In this document: positions 30,078 through 35,299 of the stretch, one piece after another | How the letters are laid out: the number at the start of each line of letters is the position of its first letter | Numbering within the stretch: position 1 is the first letter of the stretch | Assembly: GCA_947459875.1 (NCBI GenBank) | Contig: CANHFG010000016.1 | Span: 1-35,299, forward strand | Source of the DNA: Ignavibacteria bacterium | Lineage (GTDB): Bacteria; Bacteroidota; Ignavibacteria; Kapaibacteriales; Kapaibacteriaceae | Reading direction: 5' to 3' | DNA length: 35,299 nucleotides | Notes under the pieces: generated by a model | The model's database searches: none | The model's input: the letters and a program-made list of their open reading frames with translations, nothing else | Told to the model about the DNA's origin: nothing | Made by a program: the position numbers and the translations under genes

Positions 30078-30902
30078 ATGACCACTGAAGCCGCATACCA
30101 GATCTGCCTGCGGATCGCCCGCAAACACTACGAGAACTTCCCTGTTGCCTCGTGGCTGGTTCCATCCAATCTGCGCCAGCCGATAGCGGCTATCTATGCC
30201 TTTGCCCGTCGTGCCGACGACGTGGCCGACGAAGGTGATGCCGACGCTACAAGCCGACAGCAGATACTGTCGACATTCCGTCAGAGGCTGCGCAAGCCCC
30301 TTGCCGATGACGCGGTGGATGTGGCACTGGCTGATACGATCGCCAGATTCGATCTTCCTTTGAGCGTTTTCGACCGGCTTCTTGATGCCTTCGTCGACGA
30401 TACGGGACATCGGGCATTTACGACATGGCAACAGGTTATGGCCTACTGTTCCAACTCGGCCGATCCTGTTGGAGAACTTCTTCTTCGTCTCGATCACGCA
30501 CCGAATACACCGTCAGAGTCGGCGATATCCGCCAGTAATGCCGTCTGCACGGCCTTGCAGGTCACCAATTTTCTACAGGACGCGGCAGCCGATCGGGCAA
30601 GGGGCAGGCAGTATCTCCCGCTCGATGACGCCGAGATCATCCGCCGAACCTATGCGCTGTATGAACACGGCTGTGCCACACTTGGCAGCATACGCTCGCG
30701 CAGGCTGCGCTGGGAGGTTGCCATGACCATTGCCGGCGGAGTGACGATGCTGGACCTGTGTGCCAGGCGTGCCGATCCGGCTGAACGCCCCGCGCTCGGG
30801 TTGCGGCATGCTTGGCATGTGCTGCGCCGACTTACCCACGTGATGCGCCACAAGCCCCTTGTCATGCAAAGCATCTCACGTCGTCACGGATCGAACTCGT
30901 AA
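30078..30902 (+). CDS. hpnC: Squalene/phytoene synthase family protein, HpnC type
   Basis: The 274-residue product has both Asp-rich prenyl-diphosphate/Mg2+ sites: FARRADDVADE at about 42-52, and VTNFLQDAAADRARGRQYLP near 160-180. Paired with a second such gene in the order C then D, it fits HpnC, which converts presqualene diphosphate to hydroxysqualene in the three-enzyme HpnCDE route. HpnE is not in the window. A single-copy carotenoid role (phytoene synthase) is the alternative, but the tandem pair favours squalene. The ATG lies 5 bases after a terminator U-tract and has no clear ribosome site. hpnD starts 9 bases after the stop. Confidence 0.83.
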   Translation: MTTEAAYQICLRIARKHYENFPVASWLVPSNLRQPIAAIYAFARRADDVADEGDADATSRQQILSTFRQRLRKPLADDAVDVALADTIARFDLPLSVFDRLLDAFVDDTGHRAFTTWQQVMAYCSNSADPVGELLLRLDHAPNTPSESAISASNAVCTALQVTNFLQDAAADRARGRQYLPLDDAEIIRRTYALYEHGCATLGSIRSRRLRWEVAMTIAGGVTMLDLCARRADPAERPALGLRHAWHVLRRLTHVMRHKPLVMQSISRRHGSNS

Positions 30903-30907
30903 CTTCG
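30900..30907 (+). promoter_or_regulatory. -7 element overlapping the hpnC stop, before hpnD
   Basis: TAACTTCG begins with the TAA stop of hpnC and ends 4 bases before the hpnD ATG. It fits the TAnnTTCG variant and could give hpnD a separate leaderless transcript. Confidence 0.4.
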
Positions 30908-30911
30908 TCCC

Positions 30912-31802
30912 ATGTCGAAGCACGTCTTCTCCGACACCGAAGACGCGCTGGCGTTTTCTACAAACGGCAGCACGTCGTTCCATTACTCCTTTGGCTTTCT
31001 TCCAAAGGAGGAGCGCGCGGCTATAAAGACCATCTATGCTTTTGCTCGGCGTATCGACGACATTGTTGATGAGAACCCATCACAGGAAGAAGCCGTCATC
31101 GATGAAAAACGTCAGCGTCTCTCATGGTGGAGATCTCAGATCGAAGGTATCTATGCCGCATCAAAAGACGTGTCATCATCGGTCGACCCCTTGCGTAGTG
31201 TCATCAACCGCTATAAGATTCCCAAGCAGTATCTGCAGACCATCATCGATGGATGTGAGAGGGATCTTGTTCAGCGGCGCTACGAGACCTTTGCCGATTT
31301 AAAGCGCTACTGTTACTCGGTTGCTTCGGTCGTGGGCCTCATCTCCATCGAGATCTTTGGCTATCGTCACGAGTCAACGCGTCAGTACGCCATCAACCTT
31401 GGTTATGCACTGCAGCTGACCAATATCCTGCGCGACGTCAAGTCCGACTTTGACCGCGGGTTTGTGTACATCCCAAAAGAAGATCTCGTGCGATTCCGCT
31501 ACACGGAGGATGATCTTCGCAACCAGGTCTACGATGAGAGGTTCATCAACCTCATGGAGTTCCAGGCCAAACGTGCCCGCGAGTACTATCACCAGGCACG
31601 GGCGCTGCTGCGTCCGGACGAACGCATGACCATGGTAGCGGCTCAGATCATGGATGCGATCTACTACCGGCTTCTGGAGAAGATCGAACTCAACGACTAT
31701 CGCATCTTCAACCGGCGCATCAGCGTCAGTACGGTGCATAAGGTCATCACCGCCCTGCGCATCTGGCTTGGTGCAAAGTTGTTCGTCAAGCGACTTCGAT
31801 AA
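30912..31802 (+). CDS. hpnD: Presqualene diphosphate synthase, HpnD type
   Basis: The 296-residue product has the two Asp-rich motifs FARRIDDIVDE at about 44-54 and LQLTNILRDVKSDFDRGFVY near 160-180, followed by IPKEDL, which is typical of HpnD and bacterial phytoene/squalene synthases. HpnD joins two farnesyl diphosphates head-to-head to presqualene diphosphate, the substrate of HpnC. Length is typical. The gene lies 9 bases after hpnC and ends 23 bases before nuoE. It leads to squalene and hence possibly hopanoids or sterol-like lipids; no cyclase is in the window. Confidence 0.87.
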   Translation: MSKHVFSDTEDALAFSTNGSTSFHYSFGFLPKEERAAIKTIYAFARRIDDIVDENPSQEEAVIDEKRQRLSWWRSQIEGIYAASKDVSSSVDPLRSVINRYKIPKQYLQTIIDGCERDLVQRRYETFADLKRYCYSVASVVGLISIEIFGYRHESTRQYAINLGYALQLTNILRDVKSDFDRGFVYIPKEDLVRFRYTEDDLRNQVYDERFINLMEFQAKRAREYYHQARALLRPDERMTMVAAQIMDAIYYRLLEKIELNDYRIFNRRISVSTVHKVITALRIWLGAKLFVKRLR

Positions 31803-32309: not shown

Positions 32310-32897
32310 TCAGCCGAGGACTTTCCGAAATGTCAGATTCACACGCGGCCCAACGGGCCGCGTTTCTTTTTTTATACCATGCAGCCAGTGATGCTGCGTT
32401 GCGCCGCGCATGACAAGAATGCTCGAATCCGTCAGCGCCAGTTCCACTGCCGGCACATCGCGCCGAGTGCGATGCTTCATCACAAAGCGACGCGTTGCGC
32501 CAAAGCTCATCGATACGATTACCGGGTTGATCCCGAGCTCCGGTTCGTCATCAGCGTGCATTCCCATGCTGTCTGATCCGTCGCGGTAGTAGTTCGCTAG
32601 CACGCTGTTAAACGATGCCCCCGCAAGGCGGCAGGCATCCTGCCGCAGACGCTCCAGCAGCGGCGTCCAGGTGAGCCCCGTAAATGTTCTGCGGGAATAC
32701 GTGTAGCGCACTCCTTCGTCGGCATAAAACGCGATCAGTCTTGGCTGCAGCATGGTCCGACCGAACATCGTGATCGTTTCCGAGCGCCACTGAAGTGTGG
32801 ATTGCAGTTCCTGAAGATGGCTCTCCGACCACAGGGCATGCTCGTGAGAGGCAAAAAAATCGATTTCGAGGTCGGGTATTGTAGAATGCTTCGACAT
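32310..32897 (-). CDS. AlkB-like 2-oxoglutarate/Fe(II) dioxygenase
   Basis: The 195-residue product has the iron facial triad His114 and Asp116 (GMHADDEPELG) and His173 (HHWLHGI), plus the 2-oxoglutarate arginines in GPRVNLTFR (Arg185, Arg191), all in AlkB order. NPVIVSMSFGATRRFVMKHR is the characteristic strand pair. AlkB enzymes remove methyl groups from alkylated DNA or RNA bases oxidatively. The ATG at 32897 is preferred over one 18 bases upstream. It diverges from the self-cleaving regulator gene with 39 bases between, and its start codon overlaps a copy of the ACATTTTGTA operator core, so it is probably damage-regulated. Its last codons contain the nuoE terminator. Confidence 0.92.
   Translation of the reverse strand: MSKHSTIPDLEIDFFASHEHALWSESHLQELQSTLQWRSETITMFGRTMLQPRLIAFYADEGVRYTYSRRTFTGLTWTPLLERLRQDACRLAGASFNSVLANYYRDGSDSMGMHADDEPELGINPVIVSMSFGATRRFVMKHRTRRDVPAVELALTDSSILVMRGATQHHWLHGIKKETRPVGPRVNLTFRKVLG
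32343..32373 (+). terminator. nuoE terminator embedded in the alkB-like coding sequence
   Basis: ACGCGGCCC and GGGCCGCGT form a perfect 9-bp GC-rich stem around a 3-base loop, followed by TTCTTTTTTT on the plus strand. It lies 44 bases after the nuoE stop but inside the 3' end of the convergent dioxygenase gene, where it encodes part of its C-terminal arginine strand. Confidence 0.9.
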
Positions 32898-32903
32898 TTT
32901 GTA
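32894..32903. promoter_or_regulatory. Candidate operator half-copy between the dioxygenase and regulator genes
   Basis: ACATTTTGTA is identical to the central ten bases of the 33740-33760 palindrome. It overlaps the dioxygenase start codon and lies 34 bases before the regulator ATG, as expected for an autoregulatory site. The outer arms of the palindrome are not conserved. Confidence 0.45.
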
Positions 32904-32936
32904 AGTTATCCCCAATCACGCCTTGGGAATACCGCC

Positions 32937-33704
32937 ATGAACACACGCGCACAGCTCGGCATCCGCCACCGTCAGGTTCGAGAATCGATCCTGAAGCTCA
33001 ATGTTCAAGAATACGCCAAAATCATCGACGTCCGCGTGCCGACGGTCTACTCCTGGGAATCGGGCCGCACGGCCGTGCCGCAGCACGTTCTGGCCATGCT
33101 CGAGTCGCGCTACGGGATCTCATCGGGCTGGCTGCTAACCGGTTCCGGATCGCCCCTTATCCAGACGCGGCAGGAAATGTCGGAAGGGGGCGAACCAAAG
33201 CGTTCGATCATGCAACAGCTGGAGGATCACGTGTCACACATCCGCGAACTCATCGAAGAACTCAAGCGTCACTCACCCCAGGTTGTGGCCCCTGTACGTC
33301 GGAAGAAGTCCGACCGCGGCCCGCGCATTCCCATGCTTGCCCTGGGCGTCAGCGCAGGCCTTCCGACGGCTTCGGACGACACCATCGAACGTGAGATCGA
33401 TCTGGCCGACATGCTGCTGGAACACCCCGAGAGCACCTATTTCATCCGGGTTGTCGGTGACTCCATGACCGATGCCGGCATCAGTGACGGAGATACGCTG
33501 ATCGTCGACTGCGCCCTGCAGCCGCGCTCGGGACAGATCGTCATTGCCAAGGTGTACGGCGAACTCACCGTCAAGCGCTACATCATGTCCGACGGTCAGC
33601 CCCTTCTGCGGGCCGAAAATCGTCGCTACAAGGACATCGCCATCACGGCTGACATGGACTTCAGCATCGTCGGCGTGGTGCGTAACTGTATCAAACAGCT
33701 CTAA
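32937..33704 (+). CDS. XRE-HTH / UmuD-LexA-like S24 self-cleaving regulator
   Basis: The 255-residue product joins an N-terminal XRE helix-turn-helix (about 10-70, KLNVQEYAKIIDVRVPTVYS then WESGRTAVPQ), a short coiled segment (89-111), and an S24 peptidase domain. Cleavage site Ala140-Gly141 in GVSAGLPTA, nucleophile Ser176 in VVGDSMTDAG and Lys213 in GELTVKRYI are all present; the Ser-Lys spacing of 37 equals that of LexA and UmuD. The peptidase half, VSAGLPTASDDTIEREIDLA onward, looks more like UmuD than LexA. RecA filaments would trigger self-cleavage after DNA damage and relieve repression. The ATG at 32937 has GGGAA upstream. It sits directly before the mutasome-like operon, whose promoter carries a perfect palindrome. 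Confidence 0.88.
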   Translation: MNTRAQLGIRHRQVRESILKLNVQEYAKIIDVRVPTVYSWESGRTAVPQHVLAMLESRYGISSGWLLTGSGSPLIQTRQEMSEGGEPKRSIMQQLEDHVSHIRELIEELKRHSPQVVAPVRRKKSDRGPRIPMLALGVSAGLPTASDDTIEREIDLADMLLEHPESTYFIRVVGDSMTDAGISDGDTLIVDCALQPRSGQIVIAKVYGELTVKRYIMSDGQPLLRAENRRYKDIAITADMDFSIVGVVRNCIKQL

Positions 33705-33739
33705 GCCCCCTCTCTATTTATCCCGACATATTGCATAGG

Positions 33740-33760
33740 GATTATACATTTTGTATAATC
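33740..33760 (+). promoter_or_regulatory. 21-bp palindromic operator before the ImuB-like operon
   Basis: The arms GATTATACA and TGTATAATC are exact complements around the 3-base spacer TTT. The element ends 4 bases before the ATG at 33765 and covers the likely -7 region (TATAATCG at 33754-33761). It is probably the binding site of the S24 regulator encoded just upstream. Confidence 0.7.
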
Positions 33761-33764
33761 GCTT

Positions 33765-34736
33765 ATGCTTCTCTGTCTGCTTCTTGACCGCGCATCCGAT
33801 GCGGTTTTCGACACTCTGCTCGATGCGGTTCACGCCTGCACGCCGCTGATCTCCGTGCCTGTACGCGGACGCATCTTCTGCGGTCGTGACGACATGCGGG
33901 GTCTTCACGAGGTGGTGCGCACCTTCGGGTGCCGAGCTGCGATGGCCCCGCGGCGCAGCGACGCCCTCTTGCGTGCCTGTGCAAGCGTCGCGCCCGGCAG
34001 GATCGACGCCTTTGATCATGCCGATGATGTAGCAACCACCGTGCTGAGCATGATCCCCGAGCTGGGTCTGAGTGCAGACGATGTCGAGCGTCTTCGGCTG
34101 TTCGGACTCGATAGTATCGGACGGCTTCGTACGCTTCAGGAACGGCATCTGCAGTTACAGTTTGGAGCGCGCGCGGCCGCACTCTACAGAATGCTGCACG
34201 AGACGGAAACCACTCCGCTGCCGATGTATGTGCCGGCACCGCAGGTGATCGTGACCGAGCATTTCGACGATACCATCCGCGAGCCCGGCATCATTCTCGA
34301 CACAGCACAGCGCTGTACGGCGCGGGCTGCACTGCAGCTGGGCACGCGTCAGGCCTGGCGCATCGAGGTTGGTGTGCTCGACGTTGCAGAGCGTATCGTG
34401 CAGGTGCGAGTGCGCATCCTACGTCAGGGGGCAACGCTGCTGCGTACGCTCTGGGTGCACGTGCAGGCGCTATGTCGCGAGCTCCTGCATGCCGACCAAT
34501 ACTGGCGTGGCATCCGGCTTCGGATGGCCTCTCTGCGTCAGGCCGAGGGTCAGCAGATGGACCTCTTCGGCACCGAGATCAGCCGCACCGAGCTGCTCGA
34601 ACAGATGCGTCCGCGCTACGGCGGCGTACTCAAGCAGATCGAGATCCTTGATCCGTGGACGCTGATACCTGAGCGTCATGCCAGGATCGTGCCGATCAGG
34701 CCGGCCGAAGCGGCACAGGACGGAGATCAAGCATGA
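33765..34736 (+). CDS. Shortened ImuB-like Y-family polymerase homologue with beta-clamp motif
   Basis: The 323-residue product resembles the later half of ImuB, the inactive Y-family protein of mutasomes. After a first beta strand (MLLCLLLDR) it jumps to a helix and strand corresponding to the palm's second half (LLDAVHACTPLISV), then a thumb-like segment (DDVERLRLFGLDSIGRLRTL) and a little-finger-like domain. ImuB proteins are usually about 450-550 residues, so the fingers and most palm residues, including the catalytic acidic pair, appear missing. Residues 264-268 read QMDLF, close to the clamp-binding consensus QL(S/D)LF. It likely acts as a scaffold between the clamp and DnaE2. It overlaps the next gene as ATGA. 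I am moderately sure of the family because of context. Confidence 0.68.
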   Translation: MLLCLLLDRASDAVFDTLLDAVHACTPLISVPVRGRIFCGRDDMRGLHEVVRTFGCRAAMAPRRSDALLRACASVAPGRIDAFDHADDVATTVLSMIPELGLSADDVERLRLFGLDSIGRLRTLQERHLQLQFGARAAALYRMLHETETTPLPMYVPAPQVIVTEHFDDTIREPGIILDTAQRCTARAALQLGTRQAWRIEVGVLDVAERIVQVRVRILRQGATLLRTLWVHVQALCRELLHADQYWRGIRLRMASLRQAEGQQMDLFGTEISRTELLEQMRPRYGGVLKQIEILDPWTLIPERHARIVPIRPAEAAQDGDQA

Positions 34737-34969
34737 AGTTTCTGCTCGAACCGATCGATGTCGCCCAGCGCAATGGCCTGCCGACGATCATCTGCTGGCG
34801 AGGGGGCGCGTATGACGTCGAGCAGGTGCTCGATCGCTGGTCGGCCCGTGGCCCGTGGTGGGGCAGCGACGAGCAGCGGCGGTATCTGCTGCTGATCACC
34901 ACCAGCGGTGTGATGGAGATCTTCCACAGCAGCATCAGCGGCTGGATGCTCTCACGCATCTTCGATTAA
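34733..34969 (+). CDS. Small DUF6504-like protein of mutasome operons
   Basis: The 78-residue product (MKFLLEPIDVAQRNGLPTII, WRGGAYDVEQVLDRWSARGP, WWGSDEQRRYLLLITTSGVM and a WMLSRIFD end) follows the pattern of DUF6504 proteins, which lie between imuB and dnaE2 in other bacteria: a basic W-x-G start, V-x-x-V-L-D-x-W, WW and a W-x-L-x-R-x-x-D end. Its function is unknown to me. Its start overlaps the ImuB-like stop by four bases, and dnaE2 begins 6 bases after its stop, so expression is coupled. The family assignment is by pattern memory and should be checked. Confidence 0.65.
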   Translation: MKFLLEPIDVAQRNGLPTIICWRGGAYDVEQVLDRWSARGPWWGSDEQRRYLLLITTSGVMEIFHSSISGWMLSRIFD

Positions 34970-34975
34970 CGGCAC

Positions 34976-35299
34976 ATGTTCGGTTCCCTGCATACACGGT
35001 CACATTTCTCGTTTCTCGACGCGGGCTCATGCGTCGAGCAGCTTGTCGAAGTTGCCCATGCGCTGGGTCACGATGCACTGGCCATAACGGATCTGCACGG
35101 CGTCTACGCTGCCGTACGGCACCAGCGTGCATGCCGCCGCGTCGGCATCAAACCGCTTACAGGCATGGACCTGCAACTGCTCATGCCTGATGCATCTGTG
35201 CTGGATCTGAGCCTGCTGGCACGCAATGCCGAAGGCTACCGCAAGATCTGTCGCCTCAGCAGTCATATCCACGAATGCGGCATCATCGCACTAGAGCAC
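34976..35299 (+). CDS. dnaE2: Error-prone DNA polymerase III alpha subunit (DnaE2), 3'-truncated by window end
   Basis: The frame from the ATG at 34976 is open to the last base (108 codons). It encodes the start of a PHP domain: SLHTRSHFSFLDAGSCVEQL, VEVAHALGHDALAITDLHGV, ACRRVGIKPLTGMDLQLL, as in C-family polymerases. Two PHP metal-site motifs deviate: LH-T-R-SHFSFL has Arg where His is usual, and TDLHG replaces TDHDG, so the PHP metal site may be impaired. The position after ImuB-like and DUF6504-like genes and behind an S24-regulated promoter identifies it as DnaE2 rather than the replicative DnaE. It performs mutagenic translesion synthesis after DNA damage. Confidence 0.82.
   Translation, partial: MFGSLHTRSHFSFLDAGSCVEQLVEVAHALGHDALAITDLHGVYAAVRHQRACRRVGIKPLTGMDLQLLMPDASVLDLSLLARNAEGYRKICRLSSHIHECGIIALEH

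Follow-up and report, generated by a model that had tools for sequence, protein, structure and literature searches.

Gene organization of the locus

The window analysed in the present study, a stretch of 35,299 nucleotides, is the entire contig CANHFG010000016.1 (G000:C16) of a 2.4 Mb genome that is 99% complete (G000), the nearest named relatives of which are Candidatus Kapaibacterium and Ignavibacteria MAGs. The final 3 kb of the window carry, in order, a divergent alkB-like gene, a gene for an XRE-UmuD fusion protein (xre), an ImuB-like gene, a DUF6504 gene and the start of dnaE2, all five being found where the original prediction had placed them. The alkB-like gene (32310-32897, minus strand) encodes a 2OG-Fe(II) oxygenase (PF13532, 5e-35), the N-terminus of which is kept in relatives after the ATG at 32897, the list of open reading frames giving instead a TTG start at 32915. 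The xre gene (32937-33704, plus strand) encodes a predicted fusion repressor of 255 amino acids, and it is followed on the same strand by the gene of a reduced, inactive Y-family polymerase of the ImuB-like kind (iPolY; 33765-34736), by the DUF6504 gene (34733-34969; PF20114, 1.9e-7) and by the 5' part of dnaE2 (34976-35299; PHP domain, error-prone DnaE profile), which is truncated where the contig, and with it the window, stops. A defence-system profile search gave no match. Elsewhere in the window, upstream of nuoE, stands a pair of adjacent phytoene/squalene-synthase-like genes (30078-31802), which by eye resemble HpnC/HpnD.

Identity of the regulator

According to Pfam, XRE-UmuD is composed of an HTH_3 domain (residues 12-66; 32970-33134; 7e-6) and a Peptidase_S24 domain (residues 138-248; 1.8e-28), and the winged-helix DNA-binding domain of LexA was not found among its Pfam domains, HTH_3 being there instead. 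The S24 part passed the NCBIfam UmuD subfamily NF007621 (125.9 bits versus a cut-off of 110; 7e-37), and the LexA equivalog TIGR00498, aligning to the S24 part only, was failed (78.9 bits versus 110.95; 4e-22). The same ranking was obtained when the family profile was compared with the PDB (UmuD, 2e-30; LexA, 4e-20; CI, 3e-4), and the best PDB sequence match of the N-terminal half was the 434 repressor. In the AlphaFold model, a helical linker connects an HTH domain of five helices with an S24 fold, for which Foldseek ranked E. coli UmuD' first, with 1ay9 and 1umu as the best fold matches. Finally, in a tree of S24 domains from which the phage repressors had been dropped (a branch of 5 changes per column in the first tree) and which took in no confirmed member of the Bacteroidetes non-canonical LexA family, all 22 XRE-UmuD rows formed one clade (100/99) inside the UmuD group, and this group was separated from LexA at 99/95 support. 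On the strength of the profile, PDB, fold and tree results, the protein begins with an XRE/CI-type HTH (residues 1-70) and ends in an S24 peptidase (residues 128-255) that is of UmuD type, not LexA. The UmuD-like peptidase half of the original prediction is thus borne out, not least by the phylogeny against UmuD and LexA that had been proposed along with it.

All autocleavage residues had also been claimed to be present, and so they are: the predicted cleavage site Ala140-Gly141 (33354-33359) and the catalytic Ser176 (33462-33464) and Lys213 (33573-33575) are invariant among 22 relatives, even in the diverged copy of G017. This bears on the idea that XRE-UmuD is a repressor answering another signal, such as stress, alkylation or a co-repressor, with no cleavage via RecA. 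Cleavage of XRE-UmuD is a prediction, and heat shock is among the signals to which HdiR reportedly responds (PMC8565304); nevertheless, neither the cleavage site nor the dyad varies anywhere in the family and the targets would be mutagenic polymerases, and we regard such a signal as rather improbable.

Predicted operators and regulon

The original prediction had suspected operators in two stretches of the locus, and palindromes were recovered in both. Operator 1 (putative), GACATTTTGTA, lies between alkB and xre (32893-32903), so placed that the alkB ATG falls inside it, and its counterpart sits 41-50 nt upstream of xre across the genus. Operator 2 (putative) is a perfect 21-bp palindrome, GATTATACATTTTGTATAATC (33740-33760), with 4 nt between its end and the ImuB-like ATG; 0 such palindromes were expected in shuffles, and it is conserved at the ImuB-like promoter in the genus. 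When the core TACA-N3-TGTA was searched as [GT]AC[AG]-N3-[TC]GTA within at most 100 nt upstream of xre, it was present in 18 of the 22 promoters, versus 0.31 expected from shuffles. In most cases the palindrome at the xre promoter extends into the presumed -10 element, as judged by reading the sequence, and it occurs in tandem double copies in four relatives. Outside the genus, most family members have an operator at one promoter only.

With an extended pattern, we found 48 sites in 20 genomes versus 17 hits for the reversed-pattern control. By our own count, 34 of the 48 lie at promoters of xre, ImuB-like, PolY or detached dnaE2 genes, and the remaining 14 do not exceed the 17 control hits. 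Since some of the recovered sites had gone into building this pattern, finding them again at xre and ImuB-like genes is not independent evidence. The sites at detached dnaE2 genes played no part in building it, and those at PolY genes had first come to light with the shorter core pattern. In G006 and G002, where genes are inserted between DUF6504 and dnaE2, an operator stands 22 and about 85 nt, respectively, before the detached dnaE2 start. The core palindrome likewise stands 13 nt before the start of an unlinked Y-family polymerase gene beside feoB in G003, G005, G006 and G007, and 20 nt before that of the corresponding gene in G013. In a single case (G017), Arg replaces the otherwise invariant recognition-helix Tyr38, and the promoter palindromes differ as well, reading GATACGTACGTATC and GATACATATGTATC. 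These patterns support a putative operator of its own for XRE-UmuD at xre/alkB and another at the ImuB-like gene.

The source genome contains only two extended-pattern sites, both at the XRE-UmuD locus. The regulon would be small and dedicated, because sites elsewhere occur only at chance frequency. A global SOS regulon was rejected, the off-target operator hits being at control level and no site lying upstream of recA. As no operator was found in the recA promoters examined, an amplification loop through RecA would be absent.

LexA and RecA in the genome

An S24 profile search of the contigs of the source genome detected no LexA, the only other S24-like match being a signal peptidase below the cut-off. 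Across the 11 genus members the LexA profile gave a single match per genome (E-values of 1e-21 to 6e-24), and among the matches listed the positions are those of the S24 half of XRE-UmuD. The apparent absence of LexA in the source genome is thus strong, though not absolute, since the assembly is 99% complete. A recA gene is present. Moreover, none of the consensus sites of LexA, non-canonical LexA, UmuDAb or Ada was found at the XRE-UmuD and ImuB-like promoters, CTAA-N5-TTAG and GGA-N5-TCC included. The LexA part of the predicted LexA-independent circuit is supported by these searches, and the canonical LexA sites that would have spoken against it are not seen at these genes in any consensus tried.

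Mutasome genes and alkB

The ImuB-like protein is matched by no Pfam profile, and in NCBIfam it matches Pol IV only weakly. It folds, however, as a Y-family polymerase (AlphaFold pLDDT of 86; Foldseek to Pol IV/Dpo4, 1.6e-13), from which, in the genus, about 65 N-terminal palm/fingers residues are missing in the alignment with sister genera, and its last features are a QMDLF clamp-type motif and a RecA-NT-like tail, with no ImuB-C behind them. The ImuB-like gene of the original prediction hence holds as to position and Y-family fold, with the reservation that the N-terminal palm/fingers part has been lost and that ImuB-C is separate, in DUF6504. That DUF6504 is a standalone ImuB-C fits its size and context, which agree with the descriptions in PMC3765255 and PMC12926913. 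No PF00817 hit was obtained in the source genome, and no imuA was found in the operon neighbourhood. In relatives, dnaE2 is full-length (1038-1092 aa). The DnaE2X-type mutasome consists of iPolY, ImuB-C and DnaE2, together with RecA (PMC12926913); the locus holds the iPolY, standalone ImuB-C and DnaE2 set, and its DnaE2X type is assigned from this gene set.

Alkylation repair and mutagenic synthesis had been predicted to share one locus, which is true here and does not extend to a conserved feature: alkB adjoins the locus in only five of the 11 genus members (G000, G001, G006, G008 and G009), so that we consider it a local extra.

A separate Y-family polymerase, roughly 405 aa long, is conserved among the relatives (L077-L095) and in most cases encoded beside feoB. 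Its tail is RecA-NT-like, reading NASIDAINHKYGKNTLYVG, to be compared with LAIEQIEKQFGKGSIMRL of RecA. Its gene was rejected as a candidate UmuC, since it scores as Pol IV-like.

Distribution among relatives

Each of the 11 genus genomes carries XRE-UmuD, as does most of the family (Candidatus Kapaibacterium), and the order XRE-UmuD, ImuB-like, DUF6504, DnaE2 recurs with minor breaks over the same range. The family members without XRE-UmuD (G011 and G022, the latter only 80% complete) are also without iPolY. When 84,980 species were scanned in a pattern-limited search, nearly full-length matches came only from the Kapabacteria lineage, allowing for oddly labelled MAGs. In G044, from another family of the order, XRE-UmuD and an iPolY/ImuB-C/DnaE2 operon (L250 and L251) are situated at the ends of two contigs, 48 nt from the contig end in the case of the operon gene, and the orientations would fit a single operon broken by assembly. 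In family f9, XRE-UmuD occurs on its own, unaccompanied by iPolY (checked in G030 and G064); UmuDC was considered as its target there and dismissed, no operator site being found.

Could a phage-type repressor merely have landed near polymerase genes? The CI-type HTH invites the thought. The operon and its operators are nevertheless kept across the family, phage neighbours are absent, the phage matches consist of UmuD halves and of repressors sharing 22-24% identity, and the S24 half is UmuD rather than CI; we give this origin hardly any credence.

Outside the genus, at least six of the eight family members (G011-G013, G015-G017, G020 and G021) possess a separate short UmuD-like protein of about 140 aa (L104-L111), with a PCG cleavage-like site, GDSM and K. 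It is encoded close to nuoJ-nuoK and to a lipoprotein gene, and UmuC is not among its neighbours.

Discussion

We propose that XRE-UmuD is a LexA-like local repressor, that is, a damage-cleaved switch of the iPolY/ImuB-C/DnaE2 mutasome, and we hold this to be the probable function of the protein. In this proposal, the CI-type HTH would bind the TACA-N3-TGTA sites overlapping its own promoter, the divergent alkB promoter where present and, in the genus, the ImuB-like promoter; because the sites overlap promoters, the mutasome would be kept off. RecA filaments on damaged DNA would then prompt the UmuD-type S24 domain to cleave itself between Ala140 and Gly141, whereupon the HTH would be released and the mutasome genes expressed, together with AlkB here and the unlinked Y-family polymerase in some relatives. 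DNA binding, RecA-stimulated cleavage and induction by damage are expected by analogy with UmuDAb, HdiR and LexA.

One extension of this scheme is a bifunctional switch, in which the cleaved UmuD'-like fragment (residues 141-255) would also join a polymerase complex, either iPolY/DnaE2 or the unlinked PolY. XRE-UmuD departs from the short, UmuC-paired UmuD in having 255 aa with an HTH and no UmuC among its neighbours. The fragment has the length of UmuD', mean identity is higher in the S24 half (82%) than in the HTH (63%), the N-terminal arm of the S24 half, which is conserved at 84%, corresponds to the one entering UmuC in Pol V, no other UmuD was found in the genus, and XRE-UmuD co-occurs with iPolY in the family. 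On the other hand, the S24 conservation could stem from RecA and self-cleavage contacts, the genus has no UmuC partner, the f9 relative does without iPolY, and UmuDAb, the nearest functional precedent, gives no UmuD function in E. coli (PMC4807011). Overall, this second role seems to us unlikely, if slightly less so than a signal other than RecA-stimulated cleavage.

With respect to the known systems, a UmuD-derived repressor had been called unusual in the original prediction, which is overstated, as precedent exists in UmuDAb of Acinetobacter (PMC4807011); HdiR and non-canonical LexA are further precedents for S24 SOS repressors. UmuDAb likewise has a DNA-binding part added at the N-terminus of a UmuD-type S24 domain, stands in for LexA and represses error-prone polymerase genes through palindromes, as proposed here for XRE-UmuD (PMC4807011). 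It differs in having a weak LexA-like HTH, in working with DdrR and in controlling umuDC (PMC4807011), whereas XRE-UmuD would act through a CI/XRE HTH and TACA-N3-TGTA sites on an iPolY/ImuB-C/DnaE2 operon. The non-canonical LexA of Bacteroidetes, an SOS repressor in the wider phylum, similarly combines a CI-type HTH with S24, but it belongs to its own S24 clade and serves large regulons through CTAA-N5-TTAG or GGA-N5-TCC sites (PMC8565304), the S24 half of XRE-UmuD lying with UmuD in our tree and its regulon being putatively tiny. HdiR and the phage CI repressors share the XRE HTH plus S24 layout, and HdiR controls umuC genes, yet their S24 half clusters with phage repressors, not with UmuD (PMC8565304). 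A survey of Bacteroidetes found no UmuD with a DNA-binding domain (PMC8565304), and among the papers that we searched none treated UmuD together with Kapabacteria.

As for the operon, its iPolY, ImuB-C and DnaE2 genes without ImuA resemble the DnaE2X-type mutasome (PMC12926913; Kyrpidia type, PMC6511836), operons of which often carry lexA; here, the XRE-UmuD fusion takes that place and the genus has a still more reduced iPolY. It recalls the lexA-imuA-imuB-dnaE2 cassette too, in that a repressor gene is followed by ImuB-like and DnaE2 genes, but it is without lexA and imuA, and its ImuB is split in two. The mutasome arrangement has thus been described already, and what is new is the regulator, a CI-HTH/UmuD fusion that would control it.

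The system suggests that an S24 autopeptidase was recruited once more, apparently independently, as a damage repressor, by the joining of UmuD to a phage-type HTH, in LexA-less members of a poorly studied class. It also offers a small and fully spelled-out candidate regulon, in which regulator, site and targets can be named, and natural experiments within the sequences themselves, namely the operator at the split-off dnaE2 and the operator that changed along with the recognition helix. The locus also makes it testable whether a UmuD-type repressor doubles as a polymerase subunit after cleavage; should that be true, derepression and mutasome assembly would be coupled in a single proteolytic step.
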